A stretch of 39,952 nucleotides of DNA from Myxococcales bacterium (GTDB lineage Bacteria > Myxococcota_A > Polyangia > Polyangiales > Houyiibacteriaceae), in the NCBI GenBank assembly GCA_020351445.1, contig CP070713.1, forward strand, positions 2,015,412-2,055,363, given 5' to 3'. The notes under the pieces are model-generated. The model had not been told where the DNA came from, ran no database searches, and was given only the letters and a program-made list of their open reading frames with translations. A program made the translations under genes and the position numbers. The stretch's first letter is position 1, and the number at the start of each line of letters is the position of its first letter. Of this stretch, positions 14,385 to 20,710 are shown in pieces.

Positions 14385-14388
<4 letters not shown>
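13252..14388 (-). CDS. GNAT-fold N-acetyltransferase-like protein (YghO-like)
   Basis: A 378-aa cytoplasmic protein. The N-terminal part ([19 protein letters not shown], then [13 protein letters not shown]) and the C-terminal part ([20 protein letters not shown], then [19 protein letters not shown]) resemble GNAT-superfamily proteins of the YghO type, in which a large insert separates parts of the fold. The C-terminal half carries the R-G-K/R-type region expected to hold acetyl-CoA. The substrate is unknown. Its ATG overlaps the fumC stop as ATGA, so translation is coupled to fumarase. A link with the TCA cycle is suggested only by this arrangement. The stop overlaps the comEC stop. Confidence 0.7.
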
Positions 14389-15776
<1,388 letters not shown>

Positions 15777-15843
15777 CTGACCTCCGGGCGCTCCCTTACC
15801 GCGTCCTTGACCCAATGTCGATTCCTCGTAGGAGCCTTGTCAG

Positions 15844-18000
15844 ATGCGCCCCGCACGCCCACAGGTTCCGCCTAAGCCGTGCCCCGCCTGCGGGCGGGAT
15901 GTCGACCCGTTGCGCGCTTCGCAGGTGGTGTGGCTCGAGGACGGGGCTCGGTTCCTTTGCGGCGGGGAATGCAAGGGCCGGTTCCTCCGTGGCGAGCGCG
16001 ACTTCGACGCCACTCCGCCCCGGCCCGAGGAGCGTCCCCGTGTCGAGCGTCCGTCGATTCCGGACCTGGTGCGCGAAGCCACAGTGATGCGGGAGGCCGA
16101 CGACGCAGCGGACGGCGAAGGCGCGCACGGACGCCAGTACGACCCGATCATCTCGACCGGCCTGGCCTTTGTCGCGCTCGGCCTGCTCTTTTTGGGGCCG
16201 AGCCTGGAGCTAGGATGGCTTGCGGCGTTTCTCATCGTTTTGTGCGCGGCCGTCAACGCGCGCATTCCACTCACCATCATTCGAGCAAACCAGTCCCTTC
16301 GAATCGTCGCACCGCTCGGCTTGGCGCTAGCCGCCGCAGCGGGGGTGCTGAACGATGACCCCGACGCGCAACGCTGGTCGCTCTTCGGAGCAGCTGGTGC
16401 GGCCGTCGCGGTATCGATCCGCAACTGGGTTCACTCGTCCCTATTCTCGCCCCTTCGCGCCGCGGCGCTGGAGCTTCGCGAGACCCTACCGTCAAACGCG
16501 CGTGTTCCAGCCCGCGACCCCTTGGCCTACGAAGAGGTCCCGGCTGACAGTTTGCGCCCAGGCGACCTCGTCGTCGTGCTGGAAGAGGAGCTGGCTCCCG
16601 CCGACGGTGTGGTCGAAGAGGGCTCGGGCTTGGCATTGCGCTACCCCAAAGCCGCGCACTCGAGGCCGTACACCGAGGGTGACTTCATCCTTGCCGGCAC
16701 ACGCATGTTGGAGGGCGCCGTCACCATTCGTGTCCGACGGACCGGTCGGGAGCGCGGCATCCTTCGCGCGATCGAGCTGGGTCGCCGCAAGCGGCAAGAC
16801 CGCGCCGTGACATCCCGGCTGCGGTTTGCGGTCACGCAGTGGAGCTGGCTAGCGTTGGCGCCAGCAGCCATTGCGGCGCTCGCTTGGGCTGGACCCGCCG
16901 GGGCCGCGACCTTGCTCCTTGGAATCCCGGTGCTCGCGCTCCTTGCTTCCCTCGATGTCCCGCTCGATGCAGGCGCCCTTGCCTCCGCGAGGCGAGGCAT
17001 GTTCTTTGGAAGCTCGCGGGCGCTCCGTCGCGCGGGACGAACGGGAACGACCGCCATTTTGTTGCGAGGCGCCCTGACCGCCGGCGAGCCGATCGTCCAG
17101 CAGGTGCATCCGCTCGGGAGCGCCGACCTCGGCCGCGTCCTTGCGCTTGCAGCCGCTGCCGAAAAGGCAGCAGAGGACCATCCCATCGCGCGTGCGATCC
17201 GCCGTTACGCGAAGGAGGAGGGCCATCTGGAAGCTGCGGTGCGCAAAGAGCGCCTACACGCTGGACTGGGCGTCACGGCGGTGACCTCCCACGGCATCCC
17301 CGTCGTCGTCGGTCGGCGGCAGCTCCTGCTCGACGAGGGCATCAGCGTCGCTACGGCGGACAGCGACGCCGCCCACATCGAGAACGAAGGGCTGACGCCC
17401 ATCTTCATCGCTATCGATGGCCAGCTCGAGGCGCTGGTCGCCATCCTCGACCCGACTCACGTGGGCGCGCGGGACGCCGTCCAGCGTATCGCCGACCTGC
17501 CCTGCGAGGTTGTCATCCTCTCCGGGGACGACCGCCGCACCGTAGAGCGCATCGCTACCCAGCTTGGCGCGCCGAGCGTCAAGGCACCTCTCCTTCCGCA
17601 CGAACGCGTGACCGAGGTGCGGGCGCTTCGCGAGACTGGTGGTGTGACCGCCACGATCGGCCGTGGTGGCGAAGACGACACGGTACTGGCCGCAGCGGAT
17701 GTCCCGATCTCACTTCGGTTGGTCGGCTCCGCTTTGGAGGACCGGGGCGTCGTGATCGCGAGCCACGACGTACGCGATGCCGCCGGTGCGCTATGGGTCG
17801 CCCGGGCGGTCCGGCGAGCGACATGGCGAAGCATTGGTGCGTGTGCCTTGGCGGCCGCCTTGGTCGTGCTCGGAGCGGCATTCGGTTGGATGACGCCTCT
17901 CATCGGAGCCCTGTGCAGCCTTACAACCGATGCATGGACGCTTCGGGCTGGCTCCCGCCTGCTTCGCCGTGTAGACCTGCGGGTGCCGATGCAGCAATAG
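15844..18000 (+). CDS. Degenerate P1B-type ATPase-like membrane protein (catalytic motifs lost)
   Basis: 718 aa. Residues 13-43 hold a four-Cys module (CPAC ... CGGEC) like a small zinc-ribbon or TRASH/YHS metal site. The rest follows heavy-metal P-type ATPases: four membrane segments (about 102-197), an actuator-like region, two segments (332-370), a cytoplasmic P/N region and two C-terminal segments (658-695). The nucleotide-domain HP pair (446-447), FIAIDGQLEALVAILDP and LSGDDRRTVERIATQLGA are recognisable. The catalytic parts are not: the DKTGTLT position reads LLRGALT (406-412), the TGES loop is absent (about 262-274), CPC reads IPV (361-363) and the GDGxND hinge reads GRGGED (606-611). 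The frame is continuous, so this is divergence, not a frameshift. ATP-driven transport is unlikely; metal sensing or scaffolding is speculation. AGGAG lies 9 nt before the ATG, and argH starts 13 nt after the stop. Confidence 0.78.
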   Translation: MRPARPQVPPKPCPACGRDVDPLRASQVVWLEDGARFLCGGECKGRFLRGERDFDATPPRPEERPRVERPSIPDLVREATVMREADDAADGEGAHGRQYDPIISTGLAFVALGLLFLGPSLELGWLAAFLIVLCAAVNARIPLTIIRANQSLRIVAPLGLALAAAAGVLNDDPDAQRWSLFGAAGAAVAVSIRNWVHSSLFSPLRAAALELRETLPSNARVPARDPLAYEEVPADSLRPGDLVVVLEEELAPADGVVEEGSGLALRYPKAAHSRPYTEGDFILAGTRMLEGAVTIRVRRTGRERGILRAIELGRRKRQDRAVTSRLRFAVTQWSWLALAPAAIAALAWAGPAGAATLLLGIPVLALLASLDVPLDAGALASARRGMFFGSSRALRRAGRTGTTAILLRGALTAGEPIVQQVHPLGSADLGRVLALAAAAEKAAEDHPIARAIRRYAKEEGHLEAAVRKERLHAGLGVTAVTSHGIPVVVGRRQLLLDEGISVATADSDAAHIENEGLTPIFIAIDGQLEALVAILDPTHVGARDAVQRIADLPCEVVILSGDDRRTVERIATQLGAPSVKAPLLPHERVTEVRALRETGGVTATIGRGGEDDTVLAAADVPISLRLVGSALEDRGVVIASHDVRDAAGALWVARAVRRATWRSIGACALAAALVVLGAAFGWMTPLIGALCSLTTDAWTLRAGSRLLRRVDLRVPMQQ

Positions 18001-18013
18001 CGGAGATCAAACG

Positions 18014-19405
18014 ATGAGTGACAAGGCATGGGGCGGACGGTTCGAAAAGGAGCTCGACGCCATCGCAGCGAGATTCAGCGCAAGCGTGGATGTGGACGGC
18101 CGCCTGTGGCCACAGGACATCGACGGCTCGATTGCACACGTGCGCATGCTCGCCGACCGGAAGATCTTGTCTAGCGACGACGCCAACGAGATCGTCGCCG
18201 GCCTGCAGACGATCCGCGCATCGATCGAACGGGGCGACTTCGACTGGGACGAAAGCAAAGAAGACGTCCACATGAACATCGAGGCTGCTTTGATCAGCGC
18301 GATCGGCGAAGCCGGCGGACGCCTCCACACCGGACGCAGCCGTAACGACCAGGTCGCGACCGACATGCGGCTTTGGACGCGGCAGGCGTGCGAATCGGTC
18401 GTAGCCGACATCGACGCGTTGCTCGAAGTCCTGGTCGATAAAGCCGATGGGCACGTCGACTTCCTGATGCCCGGCTACACCCATCTGCAACGCGCGCAGC
18501 CGGTGCGGTTGGCGCACCACTTGCTCGCGTGGGCTGAGATGCTCGAGCGCGATCGAGGCCGCCTCGTCGATGCAGCCAAGCGCATGAACGAATCCCCACT
18601 CGGTAGCGCGGCCCTCGCCGGCACGACCTTTCCGTTGGATCGCGAAGCCACCGCCAAGGCGCTCGGATTCAACCGCCCGATGCGCAACTCGCTCGACGCG
18701 GTTGGTAGCCGGGACTTTTTGCTCGAGTCGGTCAGCGCACTTGCGATTTGCTCCGTACACCTGTCGCGGATTGCCGAGGAGCTCGTCCTTTGGTCGAGTC
18801 AGGAGTTCGCCTTCATGCAGATGAGCGACGCCTTCACGACGGGCTCGTCGATCATGCCGCAGAAGAAGAACCCGGACATGCCCGAGCTCGTTCGCGGCAA
18901 AACCGGCCGGGTCGTCGGCTCGCTCGTCAACCTCTTGGTCATGCTCAAAGGCCTCCCGCTCGCGTACAACCGTGACCTTCAAGAGGATAAGGCGCCGGCG
19001 TTCGAGGCGTTCGACACGGTCCACGATTGCTTGGCCGTACTGAGCGGGGCGATCGCCTCGGCGAGGTTCGACAAAGAACGGATGGCGGCCGCCCTTCAGG
19101 CCGGCTTTCTGGATGCGACCGAGGTCGCCGACTGGCTGGCCTCTCGCGGCGTCCCTTTCCGGGACGCGCATCACGTCGCGGGCAAGCTCGTTCACCAGGC
19201 GATTCAGGAAGGCAGGACGCTTTCCGAGCTGCCGCTCGAGGCCTACGAGGCGGCCCACGATGCCTTCGACGACACGATCTTCCTCGCTTTGGACATGGAA
19301 ACCGCGGTCGAACGGCGCGACGTCGTCGGGGGGCCCAGCCGAGCCCGCGTGACGGATGCCATCGCCGAGCTGCGGGGTCGACTCCAGGCGCGACGGGACG
19401 CATAA
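18014..19405 (+). CDS. argH: Argininosuccinate lyase
   Basis: 463 aa; cleaves argininosuccinate to arginine and fumarate, the last step of arginine synthesis. Diagnostic stretches are KAWGGRFEKELD at the N terminus, DVHMNIEAALI, GGRLHTGRSRNDQVATDMRL, PGYTHLQRAQPVRLAHHLLA and the lyase-family signature GSSIMPQKKNPD, whose Ser is the catalytic base in the mobile loop. Length and all motifs are normal. It sits 13 nt after the degenerate P-type ATPase gene and 9 nt before lysA, so the four genes from 15844 to 21765 are probably one transcript. The fumarate released is the substrate of FumC, encoded divergently nearby. Confidence 0.96.
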   Translation: MSDKAWGGRFEKELDAIAARFSASVDVDGRLWPQDIDGSIAHVRMLADRKILSSDDANEIVAGLQTIRASIERGDFDWDESKEDVHMNIEAALISAIGEAGGRLHTGRSRNDQVATDMRLWTRQACESVVADIDALLEVLVDKADGHVDFLMPGYTHLQRAQPVRLAHHLLAWAEMLERDRGRLVDAAKRMNESPLGSAALAGTTFPLDREATAKALGFNRPMRNSLDAVGSRDFLLESVSALAICSVHLSRIAEELVLWSSQEFAFMQMSDAFTTGSSIMPQKKNPDMPELVRGKTGRVVGSLVNLLVMLKGLPLAYNRDLQEDKAPAFEAFDTVHDCLAVLSGAIASARFDKERMAAALQAGFLDATEVADWLASRGVPFRDAHHVAGKLVHQAIQEGRTLSELPLEAYEAAHDAFDDTIFLALDMETAVERRDVVGGPSRARVTDAIAELRGRLQARRDA

Positions 19406-19414
19406 AGGACCGCC

Positions 19415-20710
19415 ATGTCCAATGTGCACATCCCGGAGTCGCCTTGGTTCTCGTATCGAGATGGTGCACTCGCATGCGAGGCGGTCTCACTCGAGTCGAT
19501 CGCCGCGGACGTCGACACGCCTGCGTTCGTGTACTCGGGAGCCGCCATCGACGACGCCTACCGGTCGATCGATGAGGCGCTGTCCTTCGCGCCGCACCTG
19601 ATCGCCTATGCCGTCAAAGCCAACGGCAACCTGTCGGTGCTCGCCCGGCTGGCCTCTCAGGGGTGCGGAGCTGACATCGTCTCGGCTGGCGAGATGCAGC
19701 GCGCCCTCAAAGCGGGATTCCCGCCCGAGCGGATCGTGTACAGCGGTGTCGGCAAGCGCCGCGAAGAGATTGCAGCGGCCGCCGAGGCGGGCATACGCGC
19801 GCTACACGTCGAAAACATCCAGGAGCTCGACGTCGTCGAAAGCGTCGCGCAAGAGTTTGGTCGTCCACTGGCGATCGGCCTGCGGGTCAACCCCGAGGTC
19901 GACGCAAACACCCACCCGTACATCGCCACCGGTCTCCGCGAGTCGAAGTTCGGCCTCGCGATCCCCGTGGCCGAGTCGATCGTTCCCCGCGTCGTGAAGA
20001 GCCCGCACTTGGAGCTCGAGGCTGTGGCTTGTCACATCGGCTCTCAGCTTTCATCGCCGCGACCACTTCGTGACGCGATCGAGATCCTCGGCAACTTCGC
20101 AATGCACTGTATCGACCAAGGCGCGGCCCTGCGCGCAATCGATGTTGGCGGTGGTTGGCCGATGCATTACGGACAGGAAGTGGACCCCTATCCCGCGGCG
20201 AGCACATTTGGGGATGCGATCCGCGACGGCTTGGCAGCGGGCGGCATGTTGCGATCCGACATCGAGATCATCACCGAACCGGGACGCGCACTCGTGGGCG
20301 ACGCGGGCGTACTGCTGACGCGCGTTCTGTACACCAAAATGCAAGGCGATCGCCGCTTCGTGATTGTCGACGCGGCGATGACCGAGCTCATTCGCCCCGC
20401 TCTTTATGGCGCGTACCACGCGATCATGCCGATCGCGGAGCCCGACCCGAACGCCGTTCTCGTCCCTGTCGATGTCGTTGGACCGGTGTGCGAGTCCGGC
20501 GACTTCGTCGCCAAGGACCGCCCCTTGCCCCAAGTCGAGCAGGGTGACTTACTTGCCATCCGCGGTGCTGGCGCGTACGGACGGGAGATGCAGAGCATGT
20601 ACAACGCACGCTCGCTGCCACCCGAAGTTCTCGTCGACGGATCGCGCTCACGCCTGGTGCGTAGGCGGAGCGGTCCCGAAGCGTTGTGGCAAGGCGAGAT
20701 CCTCGCATGA
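19415..20710 (+). CDS. lysA: Diaminopimelate decarboxylase
   Basis: 431 aa; PLP-dependent decarboxylation of meso-diaminopimelate to L-lysine, the final step of lysine synthesis. The PLP lysine lies in AYAVKANGNLSVLARL (Lys68). Further family stretches are GCGADIVSAGEMQRALKAGF, VYSGVGKR, RVNPEVDANTHPYIATGL, the His of ACHIGSQL, the glycine-rich phosphate loop IDVGGGWP, ITEPGRALVGDAG, and the C-terminal GPVCESGDF with the partner-subunit Cys. Length is normal. It starts 9 nt after argH and its TGA overlaps the ATG of the next gene (ATGA), implying coupled translation. Confidence 0.95.
   Translation: MSNVHIPESPWFSYRDGALACEAVSLESIAADVDTPAFVYSGAAIDDAYRSIDEALSFAPHLIAYAVKANGNLSVLARLASQGCGADIVSAGEMQRALKAGFPPERIVYSGVGKRREEIAAAAEAGIRALHVENIQELDVVESVAQEFGRPLAIGLRVNPEVDANTHPYIATGLRESKFGLAIPVAESIVPRVVKSPHLELEAVACHIGSQLSSPRPLRDAIEILGNFAMHCIDQGAALRAIDVGGGWPMHYGQEVDPYPAASTFGDAIRDGLAAGGMLRSDIEIITEPGRALVGDAGVLLTRVLYTKMQGDRRFVIVDAAMTELIRPALYGAYHAIMPIAEPDPNAVLVPVDVVGPVCESGDFVAKDRPLPQVEQGDLLAIRGAGAYGREMQSMYNARSLPPEVLVDGSRSRLVRRRSGPEALWQGEILA

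Follow-up and report, generated by a model that had tools for sequence, protein, structure and literature searches.

Introduction

P-type ATPases are treated in review as pumps in which a conserved Asp, phosphorylated in turn, underlies the cycle (PMC10654040). Human TMEM94 is a P-type-ATPase-like protein for which neither ATPase activity nor Mg binding was found, yet which binds AMPPCP with micromolar affinity (Li et al., 2025; PMC12134183); its function as a Mg pump is disputed. CATP-1 from Caenorhabditis elegans is an animal Na/K-type pump homologue and not a case of clade-wide catalytic loss. A literature search for a bacterial family of P-type pseudo-ATPases, or for a link of such proteins to arginine, returned nothing direct; few subscription papers were covered, and such a family may have been described elsewhere.

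Here, we describe gene X, which lies in a 39 952-nucleotide stretch of DNA from a Myxococcales bacterium (contig CP070713.1); this whole stretch is referred to as the window. The closest known relatives of its product are the P1B-type ATPases (CopA and ZntA; models TIGR01525, TIGR01511 and TIGR01512), with which it shares the domain order, the eight helices and the fold of the A, P and N domains. It differs from them in lacking the DKTGT, TGE, CPC and GDGxND motifs, in having lost the conservation of the transmembrane region and in scoring below the family cut-offs. TMEM94 resembles X in having a P-type fold from which TGES is missing (PMC12134183), but it is eukaryotic, has ten helices, is nearest to the Ca pumps and retains a proposed phosphorylation Asp (D417), whereas X has no such Asp.

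Domain organization and predicted structure

The reading frame of X is continuous on the forward strand from an ATG at 15844 to a stop codon at 17998-18000 (Table 1). The protein exceeds the Pfam gathering score for E1-E2_ATPase (E-value 2.9e-11) and for HAD Hydrolase (1.2e-10). The P1B models of NCBIfam also match, all below their own cut-offs; the best is that of the heavy-metal P1B subfamily (TIGR01525), with 194.7 bits against a curated cut-off of 346.25.

An AF2 model of X built on 37 sequences has a mean pLDDT of 84.6 and a pTM of 0.77, with low confidence for residues 55-97. All eight helices are present, and residues 27-48 form a hairpin followed by a helix. A comparison of the model with CopA had been proposed as a check, and the closest solved folds are indeed P1B ATPases (CopA, PDB entry 7r0g; TM-score of 0.69 with Foldseek); the best match in a profile search of structures is likewise CopA (3j09; 1.6e-85). 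Pfam, the profile search, AF2 and Foldseek thus agree on a P-type ATPase fold and descent for the A, P and N domains and the membrane helices.

Table 1. Positions of gene X, its parts and its neighbours in the window.
Feature	Position	Strand	Evidence
fumC, class II fumarate hydratase, divergent from X	14385..15815	-	TIGR00979, 788 bits
Gene X, P1B-type pseudo-ATPase, 718 residues	15844..18000	+	ORF; Pfam/NCBIfam; AF2 and Foldseek match to CopA; dN/dS
N-terminal four-Cys finger (residues 13-43), CPAC...CGGEC, TRASH/FCS/DUF7576-like	15880..15972	+	Cys conservation; sub-threshold Pfam; model
Helices MA, MB, M1 and M2 (residues 101-199)	16144..16440	+	AF2 helices; pump conservation lost
A (actuator) domain (residues 201-320), without TGE loop (aligned at about 269-270)	16444..16803	+	Pfam E1-E2_ATPase; alignment
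Helices M3 and M4 (residues 322-382), CPC lost, IPV at 361-363	16807..16989	+	AF2 helices; alignment; conservation
Former DKTGT site, now LLRGA (residues 406-410)	17059..17073	+	Asp in 0/99 members
N (nucleotide-binding) domain (residues 426-525), E440, H446-P447, G474xG476	17119..17418	+	Clade conservation at pump level
P domain, second half (residues 526-642), SGDDR, LLPHER, GRGGED	17419..17769	+	Pfam HAD; Lys to Arg at 588, Mg Asp to Arg at 607
Helices M5 and M6 (residues 643-713)	17770..17982	+	AF2 helices; conservation comparison
argH, argininosuccinate lyase, 13 nt downstream of X	18014..19405	+	TIGR00838, 616 bits; conserved neighbour
lysA, diaminopimelate decarboxylase	19415..20710	+	TIGR01048, 450 bits

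Loss of the catalytic motifs

X is almost certainly a P1B-type ATPase pseudoenzyme without pumping chemistry. Motifs were called on an alignment of 99 X members and checked against bona fide pumps. The original prediction held that DKTGT has become LLRGA within one uninterrupted frame, and the alignment confirms this. At the nucleophile column (residue 406 of the window protein) Cys was found in 61 members, Leu in 15, Ser in ten, Ala in four and Pro, Asn and Val in two each; none has Asp, and no orthologue with DKTGT was found. The Thr of DKT is replaced by Arg in 83 of the 99 members and the Lys of LPxxK by Arg in 91 (Arg588 in the window protein). The predicted loss of the TGES loop was also borne out: TGE is absent on alignment with the pumps, the Glu column being occupied by Ala in 82/99 members and otherwise by Ser, Gly or a gap.

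Two of the predicted replacements need qualification. The hinge motif GDGxND is indeed replaced (by GRGGED in the window protein), but not all of its Asp residues are lost: the first, the Mg Asp, is Arg in 47/99 members, His in 38/99 and Asp in one, whereas the second (D611) is kept in 95/99. The CPC metal site of M4 is absent from X on alignment with the pumps, and the window protein has no Cys at this position; the register of the IPV assigned to the site is uncertain by one residue.

In the members with Cys at the nucleophile column (61/99), an Arg follows two residues on, which is a Cys/Arg phosphate-site pattern; it does not occur in the window's genus. A functional pump with shifted motifs was considered and rejected, since a DKTGT-like motif occurs nowhere in the members.

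Conserved regions and selection

Conservation in X was compared with that in 25 pumps by counting strongly conserved columns per region. The transmembrane region of X has none, against 16 (M1/M2), 13 (M4), 15 (M5) and ten (M6) in the pumps, and the metal-binding residues of the helices (CPC in M4, YN in M5 and M..SS in M6) are gone. The N domain has 12 such columns in X versus 13 in the pumps, and the finger has eight versus none.

Within the N domain, the GxG glycines (G474 and G476), E440 and P447 are kept in 85-98 of the 99 members; for the HP motif, the His is kept in 68 and the Pro in 90. The original prediction had noted that the HP pair and the ATP-domain strands remain; the GxG and E440 are kept as well, and this residue conservation suggests that X may still bind nucleotide. 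Charged or polar residues that are newly conserved in X include R467, E513 and the set R539/R543/Q547/D551. The last four recur every four residues on one P-domain helix, a pattern expected of a binding face. The A domain is missing from three proteins of two lineages (L075 and L088 of genus g6, and L187 of f9), in which the finger and the P/N scaffold are kept and argH adjoins.

The additional N-terminal Cys module of the original prediction is real. Among the 97 members with an N terminus, 96-97 carry each of C13, C16, C39 and C43, and this conservation suggests that the module could bind metal. The Cys spacing and the hairpin-helix layout of residues 13-48 are shared with the TRASH, zf-FCS and DUF7576 zinc fingers, but the matches of X to all four Pfam models of this kind that were tested fall below the gathering score (the best being 22.1 against 27 bits).

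Selection was estimated by the Nei-Gojobori method from the 12 closest pairs of genus g1. The resulting dN/dS is 0.13-0.21, far below the value near 1 named as grounds for refutation, and the protein is under purifying selection. The P and N domains are the most constrained, with a pN/pS of 0.11-0.14, whereas the ratio reaches 0.36-0.43 in the linker and the first helices.

Distribution and phylogeny

All 34 genomes of the window's family match the profile at 1e-3, some of the matches being ordinary pumps or fragments, and most genera of this family yielded a full-length X. Across the order 178/184 genomes match at 1e-20, a count that includes ordinary pumps. A four-Cys finger or a changed P site was read in families f1-f4, f6-f10 and f12. 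The best match outside the order in the samples searched scores 311 bits, with an alignment that begins after the finger, and DKTGT is present in the six best matches outside the order and in eight class-level matches. In a tree of 39 X proteins and 31 pumps the two groups are split by one branch (SH-aLRT of 100). A scan of named genomes gave only four close relatives, in records labelled 'Myxococcales bacterium SG8_38' and Deltaproteobacteria MAGs. The X clade spans one myxobacterial order, probably the GTDB order Polyangiales. The apparent absences of X from G001, G005, G030 and G179 are contig ends, where a fragment of X adjoins argH.

Arginine gene neighbourhood

Loci were tallied by the author from tables, and NCBIfam was used to check what the neighbours are. 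In six families (f1, f2 and f6-f9), argH comes next after X in 34 of the 35 assessable loci. In f1 this arrangement, usually with lysA next, occurs in 28/29 loci, the exception (G011) having been read over 1.5 kb; in f2, f6, f7, f8 and f9 it occurs in 6/6. Upstream of X, fumC was found in all 14 loci read from genus g1. In f10, argD or argD-argF lies directly upstream of X in 55/59 assessable loci, and in several argF overlaps the start of X. In three f12 genomes argH is head-to-head with X. The loci read from f3, f4 and part of f12 have no arginine-gene neighbour. Both arginine contexts may be what is left of a single ancestral cluster, in which case they are not independent.

In much of f10, and also in f4, the gene immediately after X belongs to the Fur family (L060-L069, L174, L176 and others). 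The argH genes of some f10 and f4 genomes have far lower TIGR00838 scores, as if of another type, and in several genomes with such an argH it lies side by side with argF.

Both argH and argF are present in genomes without detected X, so a requirement for X in arginine synthesis is rejected and X is accessory at most. In G010 (99% complete), X is missing from between argH and fumC, which are oriented towards each other, whereas the arrangement in the window is fumC-X-argH; X is thus dispensable there. A GGGTGC repeat between these two genes (L190, 1340-1760) marks a probable site of X deletion.

Possible roles of X

The loss of the pumping parts, the selection on the remainder and the usual arginine cluster suggest that X probably senses or organizes rather than pumps. 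The original prediction combined a pseudoenzyme, which is strongly supported and withstood both refutation tests set for it, with a role as a sensor, regulator or scaffold, which is plausible only. Of the roles considered, the likeliest, and one that we regard as quite possible, is that of an accessory protein, bound to the membrane, by which enzymes of the arginine pathway are regulated or scaffolded; this tentative proposal draws on gene order, on the retention of the N domain and on the relaxation seen in the membrane part. On this reading, X descended vertically from a heavy-metal ATPase of P1B type and no longer pumps. Its transmembrane part would now serve mainly as an anchor, nucleotide would still bind to the N domain, the site once phosphorylated would form a putative basic pocket with Arg/His at three catalytic positions, and the finger would bind zinc. 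Such a protein might read the state of a nucleotide or an anionic metabolite, and regulate, or hold at the membrane, at least one of ArgH, ArgD and ArgF. Against an arginine role, neighbours in an operon need not interact, and metal is suggested instead by the finger and, in f10 and f4, by the adjoining Fur-family gene.

These last features favour the main rival, a non-catalytic metal sensor in which the finger would bind a transition metal and the P1B body would pass the signal on, either to a pump or to genes under Fur control, the arginine neighbours being incidental. The near invariance of the four Cys residues and the P1B ancestry fit such a sensor, but the metal-binding residues of the helices are lost, the window's family lacks the Fur neighbour and the arginine link is much commoner; we consider it unlikely, although not markedly so. 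A facilitator or channel that works independently of phosphorylation and passes some small solute (arginine or ornithine, for example) would account for the eight retained helices of the AF2 model and the adjoining arginine genes, but is improbable given the empty count of strongly conserved transmembrane columns and the relaxed dN/dS in the first helices. It is very improbable that the P domain has been re-tooled into a Mg-independent enzyme, for instance with a Cys nucleophile and an Arg phosphate binder: the frequent Cys at the nucleophile column and the Arg/His replacements are suggestive, but Leu occupies this column in the window's genus, and Ser, Ala, Pro or Asn in other members, so that there is no common nucleophile. 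A decaying pseudogene or a frameshift, sequencing or assembly artefact, which the disappearance of the catalytic motifs might have suggested, is refuted by frames that are open across the order, purifying selection and near-invariant residues, and retains practically no probability.

A more specific form of the arginine proposal is a one-time conversion of a P-type ATPase into an allosteric sensor in the ancestor of the order, with the N domain occupied by nucleotide, the Arg/His pocket by an anionic metabolite, and the two together setting the activity or membrane location of arginine enzymes. In this full form we regard it as distinctly unlikely.

Implications

Annotation by homology would label X a metal exporter, which is impossible by the known mechanism. 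The gene neighbourhood supplies arginine biosynthesis as a defined candidate pathway for X, a lead that was absent from the original prediction. A whole clade has here lost catalysis under selection while retaining the scaffold, an arrangement in which the pump and non-pump functions of P-type ATPases are naturally separated. If X were an allosteric sensor, an amino-acid pathway in these bacteria would be under the control of a former pump.
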